Assembly: GCA_902513955.1 (NCBI GenBank)
Contig: CABXOW010000008.1
Span: forward strand, 1-59,140
Length of the DNA stretch: 59,140 bases
Source: an uncultured Pelagibacteraceae bacterium
Lineage (GTDB): Bacteria; Pseudomonadota; Alphaproteobacteria; Pelagibacterales; Pelagibacteraceae
Reading direction: 5' to 3'
A program made the position numbers and the translations under genes. The notes under the pieces were generated by a model. That model did not search any database and was not told the DNA's origin. It saw only the letters and a program-made list of their open reading frames with translations. Below are positions 12,499 through 29,258 of the stretch, in pieces (position 1 is the first letter of the stretch; every line of letters starts with the position of its first letter).

Positions 12499-13385
12499 AA
12501 AATTTTTCAAATGAATTTAGAAATTTTTCTGGAGATAAAAAGTTAAACTTAATTGAAAAAATTATTTGGTTTTTTTTATCTTTTGCAAATATTAAATTTA
12601 ATAGCAACATTGCAAAAAGAATTAATTTAAAAAAATTTTATATTAATAAAAAATTAATCACTAAAAATGAAATTTTCAAAACTAAATCACCCGTTAGATT
12701 AATTTGTAATACTTTTTGGCAATCTATTAACTGGAAAGAAATTAATCAGAATTTAAAGAATGACTTAAGAATTTTAGAAGTTGGGTGTGGAACGGGAAGA
12801 TATTTTGATTTTTTGAAAAAATTATCTAAATCAAGAAAATTTAAATATACAGGAATAGATATAATAAATAGAAATTTTCATAAAAGAAAAGATAAATTTT
12901 TTTATTTAGATGATGCAAATAATGTTGATTTATATTTAGACAAGGTAAATTTTCTTTTTACTCAAAGTGCAATTGAACATTTTGAGCATGATTTAATTTT
13001 TTTTAAAAAAATTAGTAAATTTTTAAATAAGAAGCAAAAAAAATTTATACAGGTTCATTTGTTTCCTTCTGAAAGTTGTTTATATACATATTTATTCCAT
13101 GGATATAGGCACTATAATTACAAAATGATTTCAAAGTTGACAGAGTCTTTTGGTGATAATCATAATTTTGATTTGTTTCATATGGGGTCTAAGAATACAA
13201 ATAAATTTACATTTAAACAAATAACTCTTAACAGAATATTTAAAAAAAAAATTGATACTATTGATATTGAAAAATTGAGAGAGTCTGTTCAAAAAGATAA
13301 TAAGATTATGTCTTTTAAAAATTCATCATTTTATTGTCTTGTTATCTTGTCAAATTTAGAAATTAAAAATTTTTTAAAAAAATGA
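12495..13385 (+). CDS. Class I SAM-dependent methyltransferase
   Basis: This is a 296-residue protein. Motif I is LEVGCGTGRYFDFL, YTGIDIINR ends strand 2, and LFTQSAIEHFEHD is in the region after strand 4, as in Methyltransf_11/23 proteins. The N-terminal 90 residues have no recognised domain. ATGA overlaps join it to glycosyltransferases on both sides, which suggests methylation of a sugar in the chain or at its non-reducing end. The substrate cannot be read from sequence. Confidence 0.75.
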   Translation: MKNFSNEFRNFSGDKKLNLIEKIIWFFLSFANIKFNSNIAKRINLKKFYINKKLITKNEIFKTKSPVRLICNTFWQSINWKEINQNLKNDLRILEVGCGTGRYFDFLKKLSKSRKFKYTGIDIINRNFHKRKDKFFYLDDANNVDLYLDKVNFLFTQSAIEHFEHDLIFFKKISKFLNKKQKKFIQVHLFPSESCLYTYLFHGYRHYNYKMISKLTESFGDNHNFDLFHMGSKNTNKFTFKQITLNRIFKKKIDTIDIEKLRESVQKDNKIMSFKNSSFYCLVILSNLEIKNFLKK

Positions 13386-14461
13386 AAAATATATTGCTCA
13401 TAGCTCCACGTTTTCATACGAATCAATACTATATGATTAGACACCTTTTAAAAAAAAATAAGGTTTCTTTTATAGCTCTATATAAGGGTGGTATTGAAGA
13501 TTATACATTCGTAAAACCGCAAATACTTGTTCAAAGTAATATTTCAAAAAAATTACAATCCTTTTTTAATTTAAGATTTGACACATTATATTTCCCAAAA
13601 ATTTTTGATTTATATAGAAAGATTAAGAAGATAAAACCAGATTTAATTATTTTAAGAATTTATTCTAGGCCTTTACTTTATATTGTTAGTTCTTTAGCTA
13701 AAATATTTAGTTGTAAAATTGTTTATTATGATCAAACACCCTTAATAAGATATAACAATTTTATCTCATATTTAAAATATTGTGAGTCTATCATTGCCAG
13801 ATTTATATTTAGTGCAGCTTGGTATTCACCAATTTTATTAGAACCTAAAGAAAAATACAGTATTCCTTTTTTGGTGAAAACAAAAAAAAAAATTAATTAT
13901 ATCAAAGATAGATATAAAATATTAATGATTGGAAAATTTCAATCAAGGAAAGGTCATTTTTTACTAATTAAAGTTTTTTCTGAATTAATAAAAAAATACA
14001 GAATACATCTAACAATTATTGGTGAAGTTTCAAATCAAGAGCATATTAAAAATTTTAATTATATTAACAACTATATTAAAAATAAAAATTTAACAGATAT
14101 ATGTAAAATAAAGACCAATATTAAATTTAAAGCTATAGAAAAAGAGTATGAAGAATGCAATTTATTTGTTTTACCGTCATATTCTGAGCCAGCAGCAATT
14201 AGTATATTAGAAGCCCAAGGTTTGGGCAGACCAGTTGTGTGTAGTGATACATGTGGAACCAGAAATTATTTAAATGAATCAAGTTCTAGAATTTTTAAGT
14301 CTAACGATCCTAGTTCTTTAACAAAGTCAATAAAATATTTTTTAGATCGTCAAAATAATTATAATAAATTTATTAATAAGTCATATCAGAATGCACTAAA
14401 AAATTTTTCACAGGAAAAATTTCAAAAAGATTTTACTAACTTTTTAAATAAAAATTTTTAA
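13382..14461 (+). CDS. Family 4 glycosyltransferase
   Basis: This is a 359-residue GT-B enzyme. The C-terminal half has ILMIGKFQSRKGHFLLIKVF, then LFVLPSYSEPAAISILEAQGLGRPVVCSD, which contains the conserved E-x7-E of retaining GT4 enzymes (EPAAISILE). The N-terminal half contains one hydrophobic stretch around residue 100. It overlaps the upstream methyltransferase (ATGA) and is followed one base later by another GT4. The exact sugar is not predictable. Confidence 0.82.
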   Translation: MKNILLIAPRFHTNQYYMIRHLLKKNKVSFIALYKGGIEDYTFVKPQILVQSNISKKLQSFFNLRFDTLYFPKIFDLYRKIKKIKPDLIILRIYSRPLLYIVSSLAKIFSCKIVYYDQTPLIRYNNFISYLKYCESIIARFIFSAAWYSPILLEPKEKYSIPFLVKTKKKINYIKDRYKILMIGKFQSRKGHFLLIKVFSELIKKYRIHLTIIGEVSNQEHIKNFNYINNYIKNKNLTDICKIKTNIKFKAIEKEYEECNLFVLPSYSEPAAISILEAQGLGRPVVCSDTCGTRNYLNESSSRIFKSNDPSSLTKSIKYFLDRQNNYNKFINKSYQNALKNFSQEKFQKDFTNFLNKNF

Positions 14462-14462
14462 G

Positions 14463-15560
14463 ATGAAAAAAAATATTATTTTTTTTTTACATGATCTGTA
14501 TGTTGGAGGAGCAGAGAAAAATCTTGTAAATTATGCTAATTATCTAAGTAACAACAATATTAATGTCAAATTAATATGTTTATCAGCTAAAGGTATTTTA
14601 AAAAAAAATATTGATAGAAAAGTTAAAGTTATAGATCTAAATAAGAAAAGATTGAAAAATTCTATTTTTCCAATTTTAAAAATTATTAATAAAACAAAGC
14701 CTGATATTCTATTTTCTTCTTTACTTCATATTTCGCTTCTGCTGTGTTTTTTTAAAAAAATGAATCTTATTAAGGCCAAACTATTTGTAAGACCTTCAAA
14801 TGTTATATTGGCAAATCACATTTCGACTAAAAGTAAACCAAATTATCTAATTATTTTCTTAACAAATTTGTTTTTAAGATATGCAGATTTATTTTTTTGT
14901 ATTAGCGATAATATATTTAAGGAATTACGATTATTTAAAGTACCCACAAATAAAATTATTAAAATTAATAATGCTATTGTAGATAATGATTTTTATAAAA
15001 AATCAAAAAAACCATTAAAAAATAATAAGAGACTAAATAAAACTGATTATATTTTATCTATTGGTCGTCTAACAGAACAAAAAAATCATTTAATGTTATT
15101 AAATTCTTTTATTCAAATAAAAAAAAAATATAAAAAAAAATTATTTTTAGTGTTAATAGGTGAGGGACATTTAAAAAAAAATTTAAAGAATTTTGTCAAA
15201 ATAAATAAAATTGATAAAGATGTAATTTTTATAAAAAATTTACAAAATGTATTAAATTATATTAAATCTTGTAAATTATTTGTACAAACGTCATTATGGG
15301 AAGGTCAGCCAAATGTGTTGATAGAAGCACTACTTTTAAATAAGCAAGTTATTGCAACTAATTGTCCTGGTCAGAGCAAAAAGAATTTAAAGCAATTCAA
15401 AAACTGTCATCTTTTGAAAATTAATTCGATAAATAATTTATCTAAAACAATTTTATATTTTTTAAATAAAAAAAAAAATAATTTAAAATTAAATAAAACT
15501 ATAAATTATTTAATTAACAACTCGAGTAAAATAATTTTAGATGCAATTAAAAAAAATTAA
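14463..15560 (+). CDS. Family 4 glycosyltransferase
   Basis: This is a 365-residue GT-B enzyme that begins with LHDLYVGGAEKNLVNYA, the acceptor-side GGAE motif common in GT4 proteins. The donor domain has LSIGRLTEQKNHLMLLNSF, LIGEG and LFVQTSLWEGQPNVLIEALLLNKQVIATNCPG, with the E-x7-E pair in EGQPNVLIE. The next gene overlaps its end by 20 bases. It is likely an inner-membrane-associated glycan-assembly enzyme. Confidence 0.85.
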   Translation: MKKNIIFFLHDLYVGGAEKNLVNYANYLSNNNINVKLICLSAKGILKKNIDRKVKVIDLNKKRLKNSIFPILKIINKTKPDILFSSLLHISLLLCFFKKMNLIKAKLFVRPSNVILANHISTKSKPNYLIIFLTNLFLRYADLFFCISDNIFKELRLFKVPTNKIIKINNAIVDNDFYKKSKKPLKNNKRLNKTDYILSIGRLTEQKNHLMLLNSFIQIKKKYKKKLFLVLIGEGHLKKNLKNFVKINKIDKDVIFIKNLQNVLNYIKSCKLFVQTSLWEGQPNVLIEALLLNKQVIATNCPGQSKKNLKQFKNCHLLKINSINNLSKTILYFLNKKKNNLKLNKTINYLINNSSKIILDAIKKN

Positions 15561-16662
15561 AATAATACACTTTATTACAACCTTGGGACTGGGTGGGGCT
15601 GAAAAAGTTTTATTTAACTTATTAAAAAATAGTAACGATAAAAATTTAGAACACGAAATAATTTGTTTAAATAGAGGAGGTTTATTAAAAAATAAATTTA
15701 AACAATTAAAAATTAAAGTAATTTGCTTAAATCTTGATAAAAATTTTATCAAAGGTATTTTAAATTGTTACAATTATATTAGAAAAATAAAAAATAAAGA
15801 GAAAACTATAATTCAAACTTGGTTGCCTCACGCAGATTTAATTGGTGGATTAATCTCAAAATTTTGTGGATTGAATAAAATTATTTGGAATATAAGAATT
15901 TCAAATTTTACAAAAGGTTCATTTAAATTTAAAACTCTTTTAATAGTTTTATTTAATGGAATTTTATCTCATTTTATTCCAAAAAAAATTATTAGTTGTT
16001 CAGTAGCTGGTATTAAAACCCACACTGGGTTAGGGTATAATAAAAATTTATTTTATTTAATACACAATGGTTTTAAAAAAAAAAAAATTTTAAAAAGATC
16101 ATTTAAATTTTCTAAAAAATTTACTATCGGAATTTTTTCAAGATATCATGTGGTAAAAAATCATTCATATCTATTTAGAGCTTTAAGTATTTTAAAAAAT
16201 AAAAAATATGAATTTAACCTTTTACTTTTGGGACCAAATATTCATATTCAAAATAAAAAGTTGTTAGAAGATATTAAAATCAATAATATTTATGAGGAAG
16301 TTATATTTGTAAAAAAAAAAAATATAATTGATATATCTAAATATTTTTCATATTTAGATTTATATGTTCTTTGTTCTAAAACAGAGGGATTTCCAAATAT
16401 TTTGGGTGAAGCTATAATGAACGGAGTCAATGTATTATCAACAGATGTTGGTGATGCTAAATTGATGGTGCCTAGTAAGAAAAATATTATACATAAATCT
16501 GATGTAATAAAATTTTCAAAAAAAATTGAAAATTTAGCAAATTTATTTAGTTTCAAAAAAAGTCACAATGATATAATGAAAAAAAATAGCTTAAAATTTC
16601 ATAGTAAATTTTCTCAAAATAAAATGCTTTATAAATATCAAAAAATATGGAAATCGATTTAA
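15541..16662 (+). CDS. Family 4 glycosyltransferase
   Basis: This is a 373-residue GT-B enzyme. It opens with IHFITTLGLGGAEKVLFNLL; the donor domain has GIFSRYHVVKNHSYLFRAL and LYVLCSKTEGFPNILGEAIMNGVNVLSTDVGD, with E-x7-E in EGFPNILGE. The overall design resembles the preceding gene, so the two may be ancient duplicates. Upstream and downstream overlaps (20 and 16 bases) put it in the same transcription unit. Confidence 0.85.
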   Translation: MQLKKIKIIHFITTLGLGGAEKVLFNLLKNSNDKNLEHEIICLNRGGLLKNKFKQLKIKVICLNLDKNFIKGILNCYNYIRKIKNKEKTIIQTWLPHADLIGGLISKFCGLNKIIWNIRISNFTKGSFKFKTLLIVLFNGILSHFIPKKIISCSVAGIKTHTGLGYNKNLFYLIHNGFKKKKILKRSFKFSKKFTIGIFSRYHVVKNHSYLFRALSILKNKKYEFNLLLLGPNIHIQNKKLLEDIKINNIYEEVIFVKKKNIIDISKYFSYLDLYVLCSKTEGFPNILGEAIMNGVNVLSTDVGDAKLMVPSKKNIIHKSDVIKFSKKIENLANLFSFKKSHNDIMKKNSLKFHSKFSQNKMLYKYQKIWKSI

Positions 16663-17864
16663 ATTTAAAACAAACATTTGTATTAGATAATTTTAAAATG
16701 ATACATACGGGTGGTTTAATTGTTGAAAATATATTGGATATGCGATTACATGAATTTTTTTTTATATCTATTTATTTCATATTATTTATTTTTTTTGTAA
16801 AATTTATTATCAAAAATCAAAAACTGAATAAAAATAAAGTTTTTTTTTTAATTTCTTATCATTATTTTTTCATTATTTTGGCATACATTTATTCCTTAAT
16901 ATATGTGAATGATACAGATAGTTTTTTTCAACAAGCTTATTTATTTAATGATAGTGACGATATGCATATGGCAAATAATAATATAGTGCTCATTAATCAT
17001 TATTTAATTTATATATTTAATTTACATTATTTCTCAATATTTATATTTTTAGGATTTTTTTCTTCTATAGGATTTCTTTTATTATTTATTTCTTTCGATG
17101 AAATATTGAACAAATTTCAATTAAATAAAAATTTATTATTTGGATTATTTTTATTTCCTAGTTGGCATTTTTTTACATCTTTCCCTGGGAAAGATGCAAT
17201 TTTCTTATTTTCCATAGGCTTATTTTTTTTTTATTTAATAAAAAAAAATTTTTTTTATTTAATTACTTCGATTATTTTAATCTATTTAGTAAGGCCACAC
17301 ATCACACTTTTAGTTTTAGGCTCAGCTTTACTAGTTTGGATGCATTATTACTCAATTAATACATTAAAAAGTAAAGTATTTTATTTTATTTTATTTGTTT
17401 TAATTTCTGCAATATTATTAATCTTTCTAAAAAATTTTAGTCCAACTTATTTTAATCTAATTGTTAATTTTTCCGAACAAGGAGCTGTAGTAAGAAATTA
17501 TTCAAGTGAATTTGCAGGATGGTATGAAACAAGTAACAACATATTTTCAAATTCTTTTAAATATCTCTTATATCCATTATTTGATTTTGGCACTTTGAAA
17601 AGAACAATTATCTCCTCAGAAAATATTTTAATTCTATTATTTGTTTTAAAAGCGTCTCTAAATTATGATAAAAAAATATTTAATCAAATGATTAAAAAAA
17701 AAGAAATAATTTTTTCAATATTATTTTTTACAATTATGTTAGTTACGCTTTCAAATTTTACAGCTAATATTGGTATAAGTGCTAGACAAAAATGGATGAT
17801 GATGCCATTTTTATTCTTATTTATAATTCCATTTTTAAGTAATTTTAAATCTAGCAGATTATGA
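16647..17864 (+). CDS. Polytopic membrane protein, candidate Wzy-like polysaccharide polymerase
   Basis: This is a 405-residue protein dominated by about ten hydrophobic segments starting near residue 36. Between them lie polar pieces including FPGKDAIFLF and YLVRPHITLLVLG, a combination I associate with EpsG/Wzy-like polymerases; a longer polar loop around residues 275-300 has VRNYSSEFAGWYE. Wzy polymerases are very diverse, so the call rests on topology and on its place between glycosyltransferases. The first 30 residues overlap the previous gene and the true start may be the ATG at 16698. Confidence 0.55.
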   Translation: MEIDLNLKQTFVLDNFKMIHTGGLIVENILDMRLHEFFFISIYFILFIFFVKFIIKNQKLNKNKVFFLISYHYFFIILAYIYSLIYVNDTDSFFQQAYLFNDSDDMHMANNNIVLINHYLIYIFNLHYFSIFIFLGFFSSIGFLLLFISFDEILNKFQLNKNLLFGLFLFPSWHFFTSFPGKDAIFLFSIGLFFFYLIKKNFFYLITSIILIYLVRPHITLLVLGSALLVWMHYYSINTLKSKVFYFILFVLISAILLIFLKNFSPTYFNLIVNFSEQGAVVRNYSSEFAGWYETSNNIFSNSFKYLLYPLFDFGTLKRTIISSENILILLFVLKASLNYDKKIFNQMIKKKEIIFSILFFTIMLVTLSNFTANIGISARQKWMMMPFLFLFIIPFLSNFKSSRL

Positions 17865-18685
17865 GATATCTCATATTGGGAAGCAAAGGATTTATTGGAG
17901 AGGGAATAATTAAATATTTTAAAAAGAAAAAGATTCAATTTATTGAATATGAAAAAATTTCTGAATTAATACCTAGTCAGGTAAAGAAAAAAGATATTAT
18001 AATTAATTGTTTAGGAAAAAATATAAAAAAAACCAATACTTATGAATTAAAAAAAAAAATTCAATTAATTAAACACTTTAGGAAAAAAATATTATGGATA
18101 CAATTAAGCACACCGCTTATTTACAGGCAAAAAACAAATCATAAAAAAATAAATGAAAAAGCAAAAGAATTGCCATTTAATGAATATGCTTTATCAAAAC
18201 TTAAATTTGATAATTATTTAAAAAAACAAAAAAATTCAAACTTTAGTTACCTAATTTTAAGAATTTCAACTGTCTATGACATAAAAATGAAGAGTATGGT
18301 TCTCAAAAAACTTAAATTAATAAATAATTCTTTTTTTTATTCATTAATAGTAAATCAGAATACAATATTTAATTATATAAGTTTAGATGAATTAGTCGTT
18401 TACATCTATAAATTATCAATTAATAAAAAATCAAGAAACAGACTGATACTAATTTCACAAAATATAAATCTTATAAAGCTAATTGATAGATCTATTGAAA
18501 AAAATTATATTTTAAACAGATTTTTTATTAGCATTAAAAAAATCTTTGCATTATTTTTTAGCGAGCAAGTTCTATTTCTTACAAATGAAAATTTAATAGA
18601 AAATAATTATTTACAAAAATTTATTAAAATTGAAAGTAAAAATTATTCAAATAATAAAATTATTAATTTCTTCAAAAAATGCTAA
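17861..18685 (+). CDS. NAD-dependent epimerase/reductase-like protein
   Basis: This is a 274-residue protein that starts RYLILGSKGFIGEGIIKYF, an extended-SDR nucleotide-binding motif, and has WIQLSTPLIY followed by NEYALSKLKFDNYL, which supplies Ser, Tyr and Lys at the expected positions. ILRISTVYD follows as in RmlD/GalE relatives. It is short for the family and the C-terminal half is divergent. It may be a 4-ketoreductase (RmlD- or Rmd-like) completing a 6-deoxysugar, but the substrate is not evident. Confidence 0.68.
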   Translation: MRYLILGSKGFIGEGIIKYFKKKKIQFIEYEKISELIPSQVKKKDIIINCLGKNIKKTNTYELKKKIQLIKHFRKKILWIQLSTPLIYRQKTNHKKINEKAKELPFNEYALSKLKFDNYLKKQKNSNFSYLILRISTVYDIKMKSMVLKKLKLINNSFFYSLIVNQNTIFNYISLDELVVYIYKLSINKKSRNRLILISQNINLIKLIDRSIEKNYILNRFFISIKKIFALFFSEQVLFLTNENLIENNYLQKFIKIESKNYSNNKIINFFKKC

Positions 18686-20961
18686 AAAAAATTGCAATTG
18701 TCTCATCAAATTATTTAAGTATTAAATCTTTTTTGTCAAAACCGATTGAGAATTTATCTAAGAATTATCTTGTATATATATATACAAATATTGAAAAAAC
18801 AGATCAATTATTTGGAAATAATAATAAAAATATAAGATTTATTCATTTACCTATCAGAAGAAACGTCAATTTATTTAAAGATTTAGAATGTTTTTTTAAG
18901 TTAATATTTTTTATTTTTAAATTTAAGCCAGATTTGATAATGACATTAACACCGAAGGGTGGTTTACTTGGAATATTAACATCGTTTATATTAAACGTTA
19001 AAACAAGAATTCATTATTACACAGGTCAAGTTTGGGTTACGAGAAGAGGTTTTGTAAAAAAATTATTAAAACAGGTTGATAAAATAATTTTCAAAATGTC
19101 GACGGATTGTTTAACAGATAGCAATCTTCAAAAAAAATTTTTAGAGGATGAAAGAGTTGTAAGAAGAGATTTTTTAAAGGTTCTTGCAAATGGATCTATA
19201 TGTGGAGTTGATACCTCAAGGTTTAAACCAGATTTAGAAAATAGAAAGATCATAAGGAAACAATTGGGTATCTCGGTAGACACAATACTCTTGTTGTTTT
19301 TAGGAAGATTAAATAAAGATAAAGGAATTTTAGATTTAGCAGATGCCGCTAATGATATAATTAAAAAAGATAAAAAAAATATTTCTTTACTTATTGTTGG
19401 GCCTGATGAAGAAAATATAAAATCTAAAATACAAATTTTATGTAAAAGTTCTATAAATAAAATTCATTTTATTGAATTTACAAATGAGCCCGAGAAATAT
19501 ATGTCTGCAGCCGATATTTTCTGTCTACCAAGTTATAGAGAAGGTTTTGGAATGGCCGCATTAGAGGCGGGCGCTTGCGCTTTACCGGTTATTACTTCAA
19601 GAATATATGGATTAATTGATGCCGTTAAGGAAGATCATACTGGACTATTTCATGAGGTTAAAAATAAAGAACAAATAAAAAAATGTATAATTAGGTTAGT
19701 GGAAAATAAGGAATTACGTGAAACACTTGGAAAACAAGGACGAGAAAGAGTTTTAAAAGATTTTGAACAAAAATACGTTACTGAAGAGTTTGTTAAATTT
19801 ATAATGGAAAAAATTAATGTAAATAAATATATATCAATTGTATCATCTAATCAGTTATCAATTGAGTTATTTTTAAACAAACAAATCAAATTACTGTCAA
19901 GTTATAATCAGATAAATATTTTTACCAATTTAACATTTAATAATTTTACAAATAGTATTAATAAAAATTATTCAAATATAAAATTTTATCATATAAATAT
20001 TAAGCGGAGAGTTGCTATATTTTGGGATGCATATAGTTTTATTAGCTTAATATTTTTGTTAATAACAAAAAAAACAGATATAATTTTTACAATTACTCCT
20101 AAGGGTGGTTTTCTAGGAATATTTTCTGGCTTTATTTTAAGAATTAAGAAAAGAATTCATTGGTATGGTGGGCAAGTATGGTTTAGTAGAGAAGGTTTAG
20201 TTAAAAATATACTAAAGAATATAGATAAATTAATATCGATATTATCAACAAATGTTTTAACAGAATGTGATTCTCAAAAAAAATTTTTAGAGGATGAAAG
20301 AGTTGTAAGAAGAGATTTTTTAAAGGTTCTTGCAAATGGATCTATATGTGGAGTTGATACCTCAAGGTTTAAACCAGATTTAGAAAATAGAAAGATCATA
20401 AGGAAACAATTGGGTATCTCGGTAGACACAATACTCTTGTTGTTTTTAGGAAGATTAAATAAAGATAAAGGAATTTTAGATTTAGCAGATGCCGCTAATG
20501 ATATAATTAAAAAAGATAAAAAAAATATTTCTTTACTTATTGTTGGGCCTGATGAAGAAAATATAAAATCTAAAATACAAATTTTATGTAAAAGTTCTAT
20601 AAATAAAATTCATTTTATTGAATTTACAAATGAGCCCGAGAAATATATGTCTGCAGCCGATATTTTCTGTCTACCAAGTTATAGAGAAGGTTTTGGAATG
20701 GCCGCATTAGAGGCGGGCGCTTGCGCTTTACCGGTTATTACTTCAAGAATATATGGATTAATTGATGCCGTTAAGGAAGATCATACTGGACTATTTCATG
20801 AGGTTAAAAATAAAGAACAAATAAAAAAATGTATAATTAGGTTAGTGGAAAATAAGGAATTACGTGAAACACTTGGAAAACAAGGACGAGAAAGAGTTTT
20901 AAAAGATTTTGAACAAAAATACGTTACTGAAGAGTTTGTTAAATTTATTCAAAATTTGTAA
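18679..20961 (+). CDS. Tandem fusion of two family 4 glycosyltransferases (PglA/CapM-like)
   Basis: This 760-residue protein consists of two complete GT4 units, residues 1-375 and 376-760; ordinary family members are about 370-380 residues. Each unit starts with a similar acceptor domain (IAIVSSNYLSIKSFL versus ISIVSSNQLSIELFL, then TPKGG and GQVW) that is clearly related but diverged. The donor domains, about residues 150-375 and 532-757, are identical, with FLGRLNKDKG and EGFGMAALE in both. Met376 is encoded by an in-frame ATG at 19804 that could serve as an internal start. Unit identity comes from a 675-bp direct repeat. It is tail-to-tail with the ligase gene, overlapping by 13 bases. Confidence 0.85.
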   Translation: MLKKIAIVSSNYLSIKSFLSKPIENLSKNYLVYIYTNIEKTDQLFGNNNKNIRFIHLPIRRNVNLFKDLECFFKLIFFIFKFKPDLIMTLTPKGGLLGILTSFILNVKTRIHYYTGQVWVTRRGFVKKLLKQVDKIIFKMSTDCLTDSNLQKKFLEDERVVRRDFLKVLANGSICGVDTSRFKPDLENRKIIRKQLGISVDTILLLFLGRLNKDKGILDLADAANDIIKKDKKNISLLIVGPDEENIKSKIQILCKSSINKIHFIEFTNEPEKYMSAADIFCLPSYREGFGMAALEAGACALPVITSRIYGLIDAVKEDHTGLFHEVKNKEQIKKCIIRLVENKELRETLGKQGRERVLKDFEQKYVTEEFVKFIMEKINVNKYISIVSSNQLSIELFLNKQIKLLSSYNQINIFTNLTFNNFTNSINKNYSNIKFYHINIKRRVAIFWDAYSFISLIFLLITKKTDIIFTITPKGGFLGIFSGFILRIKKRIHWYGGQVWFSREGLVKNILKNIDKLISILSTNVLTECDSQKKFLEDERVVRRDFLKVLANGSICGVDTSRFKPDLENRKIIRKQLGISVDTILLLFLGRLNKDKGILDLADAANDIIKKDKKNISLLIVGPDEENIKSKIQILCKSSINKIHFIEFTNEPEKYMSAADIFCLPSYREGFGMAALEAGACALPVITSRIYGLIDAVKEDHTGLFHEVKNKEQIKKCIIRLVENKELRETLGKQGRERVLKDFEQKYVTEEFVKFIQNL
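19128..19802 (+). repeat. 675-bp direct repeat, copy 1
   Basis: This copy encodes the C-terminal donor domain of the first glycosyltransferase unit. I aligned it with the second copy at an offset of 1146 bases and saw no mismatch; the bases just outside both ends differ. Flanking acceptor domains are only moderately similar, so the block looks like a recent gene-conversion tract rather than a whole-gene duplication. Confidence 0.9.
20274..20948 (+). repeat. 675-bp direct repeat, copy 2
   Basis: This is the second copy of the block at 19128-19802, encoding the donor domain of the second glycosyltransferase unit and ending four codons before the stop. No transposase, terminal inverted repeat or target duplication accompanies either copy. 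Confidence 0.9.
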
Positions 20962-22232
20962 ATTTTATTTAAATAAAATAAAAAACCAATCGGAAAAAAA
21001 TATACAATTGAAAGCCAATTATTAAAAAAACTTCCTGTTGTTGTAAATGGGAATAAATTAATAAATATACATGATAAAATACAAATCCTTAAATCAAATG
21101 CATTAGGGAAAGTTTTTTTTTGATTACTGAAAAAAGATTTTAATAAGCTAAATAAGATAAATATAAAAAAAAATATTATAAAACCAAAACCAACAATTCC
21201 TGTTTCAGCAATTAGTTGAATGTACGTGTTGTGTGGGTGGTTTCCACAATTAAGTCTAAAGTTATAAAAATCAAACTCATCTATTTTATAATGTTCTTTT
21301 TTGCAATTAAACCTAAAACTTTTAACACCATGACCTAATATAGGTTTATCATTAAACATTTTAATAGCAGACAAACCCATATAAGTATATTTTTTATCCA
21401 AAATTAAAAAATATTTTTGATCCTCAAGAACTATTTTATTTGAAAAATTTAAAATTGTATTAGATATGGTTGATTGCCATTTGTCTTTAAGTACTTGATT
21501 TGATGAAGTAATGATTGAAAGTCCTAAAATTATTAATAAAAAAATATAAAATTTTGATTTATAAAAAAAATTAGTAGAAATCATAATTATCATTATAGAA
21601 ATTAAAGTTAGAATAAATGAGGCTCTTTCTCCAGAGATATAAATAGCAACAATTGAAAGACAAATTATTAAATAAGTTAACACTTTATCAATATTATTCT
21701 TGTGAAAAAAAATTAATAAACCAATTAAAATGGGTAAAAATTTTGATAAAAAACTTCCATAAATTAATTCATTACCAAAAAAACTTGATATTCTTGATTT
21801 GTTTGGATTAGTCATTCCGATAATATTTTCATAAAAAAAATATTGATAAAAACCATCAAAAATTAAGATAAAAAAAATAATTAACAAAATATTTTTTAAT
21901 AAAATTAGAAAATTATTTGAATTATTTAATATGTAATAAATTGAAAGTGTTAAAGTTAAAAATCTAATATAAAATCCAGTTTTTGTTGCAGACAGCAAGA
22001 CATAATCAGATAGTAATGAACCAACTATTATAAAAAAATAAAAAAATAAAAATCCATAGATAAAAGTTTTATTAAAATGTTTAATTTCTTTTTTTATAAT
22101 TTTATGGGCTATTAAAATAAAGATTATACCTGTAGCTATTTCTGGTAAAAGAGGTCCAGATATTAGAAGTACAGGCAGAGATAATAGTAAATATTTAATA
22201 ATTAAGTCATTATATCTTAATTTTTCATACAT
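20949..22232 (-). CDS. O-antigen ligase family protein (WaaL/PglL-like)
   Basis: This is a 427-residue inner-membrane protein with 10-12 hydrophobic segments. Its large periplasmic loop contains KPILGHGVKSFR and NCGNHPHNTYIQLIAETG, the His-containing Wzy_C signature of WaaL and of O-oligosaccharyltransferases; an Arg in SGERASF before the loop also matches. The enzyme transfers polymer from undecaprenyl-PP to lipid A-core or to protein. It is the last gene of the leftward block. Which acceptor is used cannot be decided here. Confidence 0.85.
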   Translation of the reverse strand: MYEKLRYNDLIIKYLLLSLPVLLISGPLLPEIATGIIFILIAHKIIKKEIKHFNKTFIYGFLFFYFFIIVGSLLSDYVLLSATKTGFYIRFLTLTLSIYYILNNSNNFLILLKNILLIIFFILIFDGFYQYFFYENIIGMTNPNKSRISSFFGNELIYGSFLSKFLPILIGLLIFFHKNNIDKVLTYLIICLSIVAIYISGERASFILTLISIMIIMISTNFFYKSKFYIFLLIILGLSIITSSNQVLKDKWQSTISNTILNFSNKIVLEDQKYFLILDKKYTYMGLSAIKMFNDKPILGHGVKSFRFNCKKEHYKIDEFDFYNFRLNCGNHPHNTYIQLIAETGIVGFGFIIFFFIFILFSLLKSFFSNQKKTFPNAFDLRICILSCIFINLFPFTTTGSFFNNWLSIVYFFPIGFLFYLNKIYKF

Positions 22233-22237
22233 ATGAT

Positions 22238-24040
22238 TTAATTTTTGAATGAAAATATTTCATCGATAAATTTTATATCATTGTTCTCTAAACTAGAATT
22301 TAATTTACTTTTAATTATTTGTACTTCTTCACTTGAAAAAATTTTATCTATTTTTTCTGATAAAATAAGCTTATTTGATGTTGGTTGTGACATATTTGAA
22401 TGATATAATTTTTCATGAAGTTTTTCACCATTTCTTAAGCCTGTAATTTTTATTTTTTTTATTAAACTTTCTCTACCCGAATTAATTATAATCTTTTTTA
22501 CCAATTCATAAATATTTATTGGCTTGCCCATATCTAAAACATAAATTTGTCCTTTATTACTCAGTTGAGTTGATTGTAATGTTAAGTTAACAGCGTCATT
22601 AATTGTCATAAAATATCTAGTTGCTTCAATATCTGTAACAGTTATTTCACTGTTATTACTTATTTGATTTTGAATTTTGGGAATCAAACTTCCAGAACTG
22701 CCTATGACATTTCCAAACCTGACACTACAATATTTATTTTTTTTTGGCTCAATAAAATTAAAAGAATTAGTGATTATTTCACCCAGTCTTTTTGATTTCC
22801 CCATGTAGTTTAAAGGTTCTACAGCCTTATCTGTTGAAATAAATACAAAGTCTAAACCAATTTGAGTTTTTGAAATTTCCAATATATTTATAAGACTTAC
22901 TAAGTTATTAAAAACAGAGACAATCGGGTTATCTTGAACAATTTCAACATGTTTGTACGCCGCTGCATGAAAAATAAAATCAGGTTTATTTTCTTTTATA
23001 ATTTTTTCAATTAAAGTATAAAAACACAAATTTGCCAAAACTAACTTTATTTTTATTTTGTTTGTATTTATCTTATCTAATTTTTGTTGAAGATTAGATA
23101 TTCCAATCTCATTTTTATCAATTAGTATTAATTCAGAAGGATGTTCGTTTATTAGTTGATAACAAATTTCTTCACCTATAGTTCCAGCAGCACCAGTGAT
23201 TATGATTTTTTTATTTTTATATGGTTTGGCATTATCTTTAGTTCCATTATTTAGAATAATATTTTTTTTAAAATTAAAATCTTCATGTTTATCTGTTTTT
23301 GTATTAATTGTTTTTATTTCTTCTATATCCAATTGTAATTCTTTAAGTTTTTTTTTTATTTCATTTAATTCAAAACTTGATGCACTAGGTAAACTTAAAA
23401 ATATTTTTTTTATTGTATTTTTTTTAATAAAGGTCTCCAAAGAATTAAAAGACATGATGGGTAAATTTTCAATATATCTCCCAATTTTGTTCGTATCATC
23501 ATCTACAAAAGCGACAGGATTAAAGTTTCTTGCATTAGAAATATAATCAATAGAAGCAACACCAGTATTTCCCGCTCCATAAATTAGGCACGGATTGCTT
23601 AATTTTTTAACATTATTAGAATTTTTAATTTTTAAGATTGATTGAAGCAAAAGTCTAAAATTAACACTTATCAAAAAGAAAAATATGTGTGTTAAGAAAA
23701 TATGCTTATAGTTATAAAAAATTAAAATAGTTTTTGTAAAGTTTAGATCATAATATTTCAAAAATAATAGAATGATAATATGCAAGCTATATGAAAAAAA
23801 ACTAGTTAATAATATATAAAAAACGTTTTTTATATTAAAGTAACGACTTATATCATGATAAATATTAAAGTAAGTGCCTATAGGAATAATAGTCGAGCAT
23901 AAAAGTATAGCAAAAAATAAAAGTGACTTAGATAAATTAGTTAGCTGACCATCTATAATAGTAGCAGAAATATAACAACTTATAGATATAATAGTAATAT
24001 CCAATATAACTTTAATTAAAATTTTTGAATGAGCTTTCAT
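22238..24040 (-). CDS. Membrane UDP-HexNAc 4,6-dehydratase (PglF/WbpM-like)
   Basis: This is a 600-residue protein with four N-terminal membrane helices (about 10-130), a first Rossmann-like domain (IYGAGNTG near 154-160) and the catalytic SDR domain with GAAGTIG at 283-289. The motif STDKAVEPLNYMGKSKR carries Met413/Lys417, the Tyr-to-Met replacement typical of WbpM/PglF-type dehydratases. These convert UDP-GlcNAc to the 4-keto-6-deoxy sugar. The adjacent aminotransferase and initiating transferase support a bacillosamine-type pathway, although WbpM-like enzymes also feed QuiNAc/FucNAc synthesis. Confidence 0.88.
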   Translation of the reverse strand: MKAHSKILIKVILDITIISISCYISATIIDGQLTNLSKSLLFFAILLCSTIIPIGTYFNIYHDISRYFNIKNVFYILLTSFFSYSLHIIILLFLKYYDLNFTKTILIFYNYKHIFLTHIFFFLISVNFRLLLQSILKIKNSNNVKKLSNPCLIYGAGNTGVASIDYISNARNFNPVAFVDDDTNKIGRYIENLPIMSFNSLETFIKKNTIKKIFLSLPSASSFELNEIKKKLKELQLDIEEIKTINTKTDKHEDFNFKKNIILNNGTKDNAKPYKNKKIIITGAAGTIGEEICYQLINEHPSELILIDKNEIGISNLQQKLDKINTNKIKIKLVLANLCFYTLIEKIIKENKPDFIFHAAAYKHVEIVQDNPIVSVFNNLVSLINILEISKTQIGLDFVFISTDKAVEPLNYMGKSKRLGEIITNSFNFIEPKKNKYCSVRFGNVIGSSGSLIPKIQNQISNNSEITVTDIEATRYFMTINDAVNLTLQSTQLSNKGQIYVLDMGKPINIYELVKKIIINSGRESLIKKIKITGLRNGEKLHEKLYHSNMSQPTSNKLILSEKIDKIFSSEEVQIIKSKLNSSLENNDIKFIDEIFSFKN

Positions 24041-24049
24041 GTTTAATTT

Positions 24050-25222
24050 TTAAGCTAAAATTTGATCCAATACTTTGGTAATTTTTGTTATTTTTTTATT
24101 CATCTCTATATTGCTTATAAAAGGATTTATATAGAATGCCAAAGAAACAGGTGAAAGTTTAGAGGCATTTTTTAATCTTTTTTTTGGAGACAGGTTAAAC
24201 ATTTTAAAAGAACTTTCTAAATACATCTCAGAACATGATCCTTCATTACAAATTTGTTCTTTTGAATTTAAAAGTTTTATTATTTTTTTTAAATTATATT
24301 TTTTTTTTATCATCTCTAAATTAAGTTTAATATAACACCTATATGGTGAAAGATTAATGTTTTTAGGCACTTTTGGAATTGATACAGCTTTATGGTTTTT
24401 AAGACTTCCCCAAATAAGATTATTTAAATATTTTCTTCTTGAAATAGTTTTATTTAATTTTTTGAGTTGATGAATTCCTAATACAGCTTGCATCTCTGTC
24501 ATTCTTAAATTTGTTCCAAATGTATCATGAACCCAATTAAATCCAGAAGATGTATTTTTTAAATTTTTTTTGACTTTATCAAAATTTTTTCCAATTTCTT
24601 TATAGGCCCAAATTTTTTTCCAAATTTCTTTTTTTTTAACTGCAATCATTGCCCCTTCACCACCTGTAGAAATAATTTTATCATTACAAAAGCTCCAAAT
24701 AGCTATATCCCCAAAACTTCCTACAAACTTTTTATTTATTTTTGCTCCATGTGCTTGAGAACAATCCTCAATTAAAACTAATTTTTTTTTTTTAGCTATC
24801 TTAATTATTTTATTCATTTCACAGGGCCATCCACCAAGATGTACACATATAATTGCCTTAGTTTTATTAGAAATCTTTTTTGTTAAATCATTAATTTGTA
24901 AATTTTGACTGTTAAAATCAATATCACAGAAAATTGGTTTAGCCCCAGAAGTAACTATCGCACTTGCTGAAGATTGATAAGATTTAGATGGAACCAATAC
25001 TTCATCATTTTTTTTTAAATTTAAAGATTTTAATGCTGCTTCTAAAGCTACAGTTCCATTAGCAACAGTTATGCAGTAATTTAAATTAAACTTTTTTGCG
25101 TATAGCTTCTCAAATTTTTTACAGTAATTACCGGTCCAGTAGTTTACTTTTCCAGATTTCAATACTTTAACTACTTTTTCAATTTCTTCACTTGAGTAAT
25201 AAGGCCAATTTTTACTAGTCAT
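24050..25222 (-). CDS. PLP-dependent sugar aminotransferase (DegT/DnrJ/EryC1/StrS, PglE-like)
   Basis: This is a 390-residue fold-type I aminotransferase of the sugar family. It has ANGTVALEAAL for the cofactor phosphate, EDCSQAHGA, and the PLP Lys182 in SFCNDKIISTGGEGAM. It should aminate the 4-keto sugar from the dehydratase encoded downstream. It overlaps the sugar transferase gene by 8 bases. The pairing matches PglF-PglE of the bacillosamine route; a PseC-like or perosamine-type role is less favoured by context. Confidence 0.87.
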   Translation of the reverse strand: MTSKNWPYYSSEEIEKVVKVLKSGKVNYWTGNYCKKFEKLYAKKFNLNYCITVANGTVALEAALKSLNLKKNDEVLVPSKSYQSSASAIVTSGAKPIFCDIDFNSQNLQINDLTKKISNKTKAIICVHLGGWPCEMNKIIKIAKKKKLVLIEDCSQAHGAKINKKFVGSFGDIAIWSFCNDKIISTGGEGAMIAVKKKEIWKKIWAYKEIGKNFDKVKKNLKNTSSGFNWVHDTFGTNLRMTEMQAVLGIHQLKKLNKTISRRKYLNNLIWGSLKNHKAVSIPKVPKNINLSPYRCYIKLNLEMIKKKYNLKKIIKLLNSKEQICNEGSCSEMYLESSFKMFNLSPKKRLKNASKLSPVSLAFYINPFISNIEMNKKITKITKVLDQILA

Positions 25223-25793
25223 ATTTATAACCTTTAAACTTAATCATTTTTCTAGAAAATTGATTTTTAATAAAAAAAGATTTAATTATTTTTGTTAAGG
25301 TTTTAAGGATTATTAGTAAATCAATAAATATTGATTTATTATAATAGTACCAAACATCTAAATCAAATTTTTCTTTCCAACTAATATCATCATATTCATT
25401 TACTTGTGCCCAGCCAGTAATGCCTGGTTTGAGCAAAAGTCTCAATTTATGTTTTTTTGAATAAAGTTTATTATATTCCATATATAATGGTCTTGGACCA
25501 ACTAGCGTTAAATCTCCTTTAATTAAATTAAAAATTTGTGGTAACTCGTCAAGTTTTGTTTTTCTCAGAAAAAGTCCATATTTGCTTATAGATTTTTCTT
25601 TTTGATTAAAATATTTCATAGTTCTAAATTTAATAATCATAATTTGTTTTGCCTTTAAACCACTTCTTTTATGAATAAAAAAAATAGGTTCACCTAAAAA
25701 AAATAAATTTGTCAGACAAATAATTAAAATAAATGGTAATATTAAAGGAAATATTAAAATGACAAACATAACATCAAAAATTCTTTGTAACAT
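25215..25793 (-). CDS. Initiating sugar-1-phosphate transferase (PglC-like monotopic phosphoglycosyltransferase)
   Basis: This is a 192-residue protein with one N-terminal hydrophobic hairpin (about 5-30), then HKRSGLKAKQIMIIKFRTMK and the catalytic Asp82-Glu83 in TKLDELPQIFNLIKGD, followed by LVGPRP. Its length matches minimal PglC-type enzymes, not the long WbaP/WcaJ type. It would move diNAcBac-1-P or a related sugar phosphate onto undecaprenyl phosphate at the inner leaflet, starting the lipid-linked glycan. Confidence 0.9.
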   Translation of the reverse strand: MLQRIFDVMFVILIFPLILPFILIICLTNLFFLGEPIFFIHKRSGLKAKQIMIIKFRTMKYFNQKEKSISKYGLFLRKTKLDELPQIFNLIKGDLTLVGPRPLYMEYNKLYSKKHKLRLLLKPGITGWAQVNEYDDISWKEKFDLDVWYYYNKSIFIDLLIILKTLTKIIKSFFIKNQFSRKMIKFKGYKYD

Positions 25794-28595: not shown

Positions 28596-29258
28596 CTAAA
28601 GATATTTTTGACCCAATTTTCTGGATTTAATAAATTTTGCTGGAACACCAAAATAAACACTGTTTTTTTTACAATTTTTGTTTACGTAAGATTTGCCACC
28701 ACATATTACATTTTCATAAATCACAATATTATTTTTCACTACACACCCAATACCTAAATGACTTAAATTTTTTAATTTTACATTGCCCCCAGTTATCACA
28801 CCTGGACCAGTGCTGCTAAAACTTTCCAGGTTGTTATCATGGTCAATAGAAGTTGAAGAGTTTATAATACAATGTTCTTTTATTTCACTTCCACTGCCAA
28901 TAAATGAATTTGCTAAAATTACTGACCCAGAACCAATATTAACATTTGATTTGACGATAGATTTTTTAGATATTATTGTCTCCCACTTAATACTTTTAAA
29001 TTGATTTTTTAATAATTTATAATTTTTATATCTTAAGTAATTATCTCCTATACCTATTACACCATATAAATTTTTAATTTTTATATTTTTTATATCGATT
29101 ATTTTAAAATTTCTTTTATTTATTTTAACTATATTACTTCCGGTTTTTTTGGAATTATCCACAAATCCAAAAAACTTATATTTGCTTTTAAAATCCAATA
29201 TTTCATTTAAAATTACTTTAGCGTGTCCACCACTTCCAAATATGACTATATTTTTCAT
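28596..29258 (-). CDS. Sugar O/N-acetyltransferase, left-handed beta-helix (PglD/NeuD-like)
   Basis: This is a 220-residue protein with an N-terminal Rossmann-like nucleotide-sugar domain (IVIFGSGGHAKVILNEI) and a C-terminal hexapeptide-repeat helix from about residue 105. The His in SIDHDNN corresponds to the catalytic base of PglD, and the segment YFGVPAKFIK closes the helix as in that family. With the dehydratase, aminotransferase and PglC-like transferase it completes a UDP-diNAcBac set. It is the first gene of the leftward block. Confidence 0.83.
   Translation of the reverse strand: MKNIVIFGSGGHAKVILNEILDFKSKYKFFGFVDNSKKTGSNIVKINKRNFKIIDIKNIKIKNLYGVIGIGDNYLRYKNYKLLKNQFKSIKWETIISKKSIVKSNVNIGSGSVILANSFIGSGSEIKEHCIINSSTSIDHDNNLESFSSTGPGVITGGNVKLKNLSHLGIGCVVKNNIVIYENVICGGKSYVNKNCKKNSVYFGVPAKFIKSRKLGQKYL

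Follow-up and report, generated by a model that had tools for sequence, protein, structure and literature searches.

Evidence for recurrent donor-domain conversion in a fused tandem glycosyltransferase of Pelagibacteraceae

Organization of the fused gene and its neighbourhood

The window (the whole stretch of DNA that was analysed, 59,140 nucleotides) carries a fused glycosyltransferase gene between an epimerase-like gene and a convergent Wzy_C gene. The features of the locus are:

17861-18685, plus strand: epimerase-like gene, directly upstream (PF01370); relatives stand at the same place in loci L038, L040 and L135
18679-20961, plus strand: fused GT4-GT4 gene, 760 aa; open frame without stop, PF00534 found twice, AlphaFold2 model
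18679-19127, plus strand: acceptor domain of unit 1 (TGQVW at 19021-19035, LTDS at 19111-19122)
19128-19802, plus strand: donor domain copy 1, 675 bp (GRLNKDKG at 19303-19326, EX7E at 19537-19566)
19803-20273, plus strand: junction and acceptor domain of unit 2 (GGQVW at 20167-20181, LTEC at 20257-20268)
20274-20948, plus strand: donor domain copy 2, 675 bp (GRLNKDKG at 20449-20472, EX7E at 20683-20712)
20949-20961, plus strand: unique tail and stop codon of the fused gene, which overlap the convergent Wzy_C gene at its end
20949-22232, minus strand: convergent Wzy_C gene, of the O-antigen ligase/polymerase/O-oligosaccharyltransferase type (PF04932); same place in AG-909-E04 and G033
22238-24040, minus strand: PglF-like sugar dehydratase (Polysacc_synt_2, PF02719)
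24050-25222, minus strand: DegT-type aminotransferase, PglE-like role (PF01041)
25215-25793, minus strand: bacterial sugar transferase, a PglC-like initiating phosphoglycosyl transferase (PF02397)
28596-29258, minus strand: PglD-like acetyltransferase (PglD_N, PF17836)

These genes belong to a large surface-glycan cluster (825-30250) that is partly like pgl glycosylation loci and includes an ABC exporter (825-2600), the PglF/E/C/D-like genes and Wzy_C. The PglF/E/C/D-like genes together with the exporter suggest a lipid-linked glycan begun by a bacillosamine-type sugar. Promoter-like sites were no more numerous than in shuffled sequences, and no terminator-like site was found.

A first-pass annotation made from the sequence had described a 760-residue protein with two GT4 units, and the open reading frame at 18679-20961 (2283 bp, 760 residues) indeed matches PF00534 (Glycos_transf_1) in two stretches, at 263.7 bits against a curated cut-off of 26.4. 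The AlphaFold2 model of the protein contains two complete GT-B units (mean pLDDT 90) joined by a helix, their relative placement being uncertain (pTM 0.58). Its matches in the PDB include PglA, MshA and BshA, all in keeping with a GT-B fold, and the nearest ones by fold as well as by sequence are PglA entries, with ~21% identity to Pgl enzymes. No NCBIfam equivalog cut-off was reached by any listed model, neither that of PglJ (NF050063, 105.8 bits against a cut-off of 500) nor that of PglH (NF050056, 100.3 bits against 600). The EX7E glutamates of PglH make contact with ribose and GalNAc, and R191 and K196 of the same enzyme hold the pyrophosphate (PMC5792488). The equivalent donor motifs lie wholly inside the identical blocks of both units: EX7E (REGFGMAALE, residues 287-296 and 669-678) is intact in each, and the R/K pyrophosphate residues are present in each GRLNKDKG motif (residues 209-216 and 591-598).

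Base-by-base alignment of 19128-19802 with 20274-20948, a check that the first-pass annotation had proposed, revealed 675 of 675 identical positions, although both the exact identity and the number of units (two) come from draft assemblies, in which a few differences may be merged and extra units hidden. The block edges that had been placed by eye were also correct, identity ending at the first base beyond either edge with zero extension. Each of the four domain junctions of the gene consists of unique sequence, and the reading frame is kept across the fusion; a repeat search with 20-bp seeds detected no other repeat family in the window. Three further adjacent GT4 genes directly upstream (13382-16662) share no long DNA tract, indicating that adjacency alone does not produce homogenisation.

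The two acceptor domains are, as had been noted, only moderately alike: 70 of 150 aligned residues are identical (47%), different codons are used at 29 of the 70 residues common to both, and dS between the acceptor halves is ~1.06. Over the ~137 synonymous sites of the donor half we found a single difference, in the codon just beyond the block edge. Set against the acceptor dS, this synonymous identity excludes chance and purifying selection. The inequality of the two halves had itself been taken as a sign of conversion or swapping. This part of the argument did not hold as worded, given that a donor half better conserved than the acceptor half is not unusual per se in the family (amino-acid identity between the window and AG-909-E04 is 61-63% for the donor and 41-45% for the acceptor); the unusual features are the identity at synonymous sites and the sharp block edges.

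The unit pair and its relatives in other genomes

Searching SAR11 genomes for homologues, a further proposal of the first-pass annotation, was done in draws of ~400 genomes each from the order, the genus and the family, the draws overlapping. Close full-length relatives were rare; besides single-unit relatives of 31-41% identity, the draws yielded a pair in AG-909-E04 and a broken copy in G033. In AG-909-E04 (a Pelagibacteraceae single cell, locus L038) the units are separate, overlapping genes with the same flanks as the pair in the window, an epimerase gene on one side and a convergent Wzy_C gene on the other; the donor halves form a mosaic of 80-100% identity and the acceptor halves have diverged. 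Fused pairs of ~755-757 aa were found in AG-891-K19 and AG-891-E17 (hereafter K19 and E17), single cells titled uncultured Alphaproteobacteria that belong to another alphaproteobacterial group than SAR11, and in G1086, recovered among 162 genomes of the order of K19. Thus the same unit pair occurs in four other genomes, next to an epimerase gene and pgl-type genes. Exact donor tracts over the EX7E region measure 244 bp in K19, 241 bp in E17 and 293 bp in G1086.

In the SAR11 genome G033 the locus is split, unit 1 being cut at one contig end and a donor domain at another (L036:1-457 at the start of contig C1, and L149 at the start of contig C8), the latter piece standing before Wzy_C and pgl-type genes that are the same as in the window. 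Such a split is what an unresolved repeat would cause, and it illustrates that draft genomes can be broken or blurred by repeats within glycan clusters. Apart from G033, a DNA-level search in the relatives gave only noise. Single units of ~374-396 aa are present in G271, G175, G176, G325, G369 and G442, and long direct repeats were absent at the four loci searched in this set. A class-wide search returned single units only and no further pair. No mobile source for the fused gene emerged from phages (nine weak glycosyltransferase matches), from viral contigs (no match) or from plasmids, among which the sole match at E 1e-30 was a single-unit relative of ~40% identity in Sulfitobacter pontiacus (NZ_CP081119.1:39607-40719).

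The point of fusion differs between loci. In the window, donor copy 1 continues in frame into an ATG (19804-19806), which fits a former start codon. No ATG is left at the corresponding place in K19 and E17, so their fusion may be older. Our reading is that the units were probably overlapping genes that became fused at least once. In AG-909-E04 a shift of one base separates the frames of the two units beside a run of nine A (L038:2980-3083), at which slippage or an indel would decide between fused and separate products.

Recurrent overwriting of the donor domains

Comparison of the EX7E region between the two units of one genome gave a dS of 0 in four genomes and 0.16 in one, whereas between genomes the donor EX7E regions differed by a dS of ~1 or more, up to saturation. 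Tract dS was 0 within K19 and 0 within E17 and 1.09 between the two, a value resembling that of the rest of their genes, indicating that both copies changed together in each lineage; for the window it was 0 within and at least 1.5 against AG-909-E04. Copies within a genome are thus closer at synonymous sites than orthologues between genomes, the mark of concerted evolution. The trees of K19, E17 and G1086 bear the same mark in that they conflict: the acceptor domains, which are the unconverted part, place unit 1s and unit 2s in separate clades (100/100 and 99/99), whereas the tracts group by genome (97/94 and 100/98). The donor domains have been repeatedly overwritten by each other while the acceptor domains were kept distinct, and in the window the conversion spans the whole donor domain. 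We therefore hold it very probable that gene conversion recurs between the donor domains of an old tandem pair.

The edges of the tracts bear on whether this copying has functional meaning. The long identity of the two SAR11 pairs, those of the window and of AG-909-E04, sets in at residue 150-151, right after the DS/EC site, and AG-909-E04 is also identical over 62 bp lying between one signature site and the other. Conversions seem to stop at, or to skip, sites that differ between the units. These edge positions, in two pairs, may reflect selection for distinct acceptors. The homogenisation could instead be neutral, with a conserved EX7E segment that recombines without functional consequence and with donors that may differ or one unit that is inactive. 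In K19 and E17 the tract covers only the most conserved segment, with coinciding edges, as would follow if no other segment remained alike enough for recombination. Yet different donors are hard to reconcile with an identical donor domain, the catalytic motifs are intact in both units, and the onset of SAR11 identity right after the DS/EC site suggests constraint at acceptor sites; we consider neutrality the strongest of the alternatives, though unlikely. Less probable still is that conversion is a selected device, which would keep both modules on the same sugar while recombination between the direct repeats, under pressure from phages or grazers, switches glycan length. If so, one donor mutation would change two residues of the surface glycan at once, and the second unit could be lost or regained with the reading frame kept, its loss leaving behind a clean enzyme of one unit and ~378 aa.

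The history of the acceptor domains was approached through their signature sites. GGQ together with EC occurs in 5 of 90 distinct motif instances of the family, namely in the unit 2s of the five loci, while TGQ with DS, the common state of the family, is found in all five unit 1s. The confinement of GGQ and EC to the five unit 2s indicates that the second acceptor domain most likely had a single origin, which would predate the homogenisation. KGG, a unit-2 state, is present in unit 1 of the window (18955-18972), the four other unit 1s carrying KAG; it suggests an older, shorter exchange within the acceptor half.

The first-pass annotation had left the choice between a recent conversion and a domain swap. 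Of these, conversion stands, as a recurrent process evident in four further genomes rather than one event, and a recent acceptor swap is disfavoured because the GGQ and EC domain is common to five loci and older than the homogenisation. Specifically, a recent duplication of a whole unit, after which a foreign acceptor domain replaced one of the two, would leave identical donor halves and, in one genome, the same pattern. The acceptor domains of the window do cluster together (94/93; a common unit-2 clade was not rejected, AU p 0.087), which for the window pair alone leaves room for a separate duplication. However, the unit-2 acceptor type shared by all five loci would require five separate swaps of the same type, and each locus has homogenised tracts of genome-specific sequence, making this explanation quite improbable.

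An assembly artefact, in which the second donor copy or the exact identity arose when the assembler combined two strains or merged near-identical copies, deserved attention given a draft genome of 38 contigs, the window being one of them in full, that is 83% complete, exact 675-bp repeats that are difficult for short reads, and an assembly of G033 that breaks at the same locus. Merging may hide a few differences but not the pair; the two-unit order recurs in four independently assembled genomes, one of them with non-identical donor copies, and the four unique junctions and the in-frame fusion also argue against an artefact, to which we assign a slightly smaller chance than to duplication and swap. 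Protein-level purifying selection alone, suggested by the donor being the more conserved half in the family, was rejected, as the identity extends to synonymous sites (dS 0 within genomes, ~1 to saturation between them).

Predicted function and comparison with known systems

The account that we favour, at a probability of about 0.65, combines recurrent conversion of a PglA-like fused pair with double transfer of the same sugar. It takes the gene to encode two PglA-like GT4 glycosyltransferases joined head to tail and to descend from an old tandem pair within a pgl-type surface-glycan cluster. Copying would proceed by ordinary homologous recombination between direct repeats, and selection would purge conversions that erase acceptor determinants such as GGQ/EC versus TGQ/DS. 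Given that the donor domains are identical, the same nucleotide sugar is predicted for both units. The PglF/E/D/C-like enzymes encoded nearby would begin an undecaprenyl-PP-linked acceptor, onto which two residues of this sugar may be added one after the other, each unit recognising a different acceptor. We rate two successive transfers of one sugar onto a pgl-type lipid-linked glycan as slightly better than an even chance; use of the same donor on two acceptors in sequence, as the first-pass annotation had suggested, is plausible, with PglA/PglJ/PglH and WbdA as precedents.

In Campylobacter N-glycosylation the GT4 enzymes PglA, PglJ and PglH act one after another on a lipid-linked glycan as it grows, all with UDP-GalNAc as donor (PMC5792488). 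The window protein is likewise a GT4 enzyme, with PglA nearest in fold and sequence and PglF/E/D/C-like neighbours, and a PglA-type mode of action is consistent with PglA as the nearest solved relative and with the pgl-type sugar genes alongside. The Pgl enzymes are separate proteins, unlike the one fused polypeptide here, identity to them is ~21%, and homogenised donor domains are not described for them in the literature consulted for the comparison. Several modules in one polypeptide are known from WbdA of E. coli O9 and Klebsiella O3 and O5, which has two or three glycosyltransferase modules that all use GDP-mannose (PMC11231755). The window protein resembles WbdA in having two GT4 modules in one polypeptide, its shared donor being predicted from the identical donor domains. 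WbdA is a WbdD-recruited chain polymerase of an ABC-transporter O-antigen system, whereas the window protein is closest to PglA, and, unlike the window gene, WbdA has no long identical donor DNA reported. In the vertebrate UGT1 cluster (GT1) a single identical donor domain, supplied by constant exons, serves many acceptor domains, and gene conversion is not prevalent (PMC1885805); in the window gene sharing is achieved by DNA copying between two modules.

Same-donor glycosyltransferase modules and gene conversion are each already known; the open-access literature searched contained no matching report of bacterial glycosyltransferases that undergo intragenic conversion or concerted evolution, nor one of the two features combined. 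The series from separate to fused genes and from partly to fully homogenised donors separates donor-fixing from acceptor-fixing parts of GT4 enzymes. GGQ/TGQ and EC/DS, distinct despite repeated conversion, are candidate positions for acceptor specificity, a long-standing obstacle in the assignment of glycosyltransferases. As in the concerted evolution of tandem genes, likeness within a genome exceeds likeness between genomes, trees conflict and synonymous sites are homogenised; unlike the usual case, the process affects one functional domain of a fused two-module enzyme while the other domain is kept distinct.
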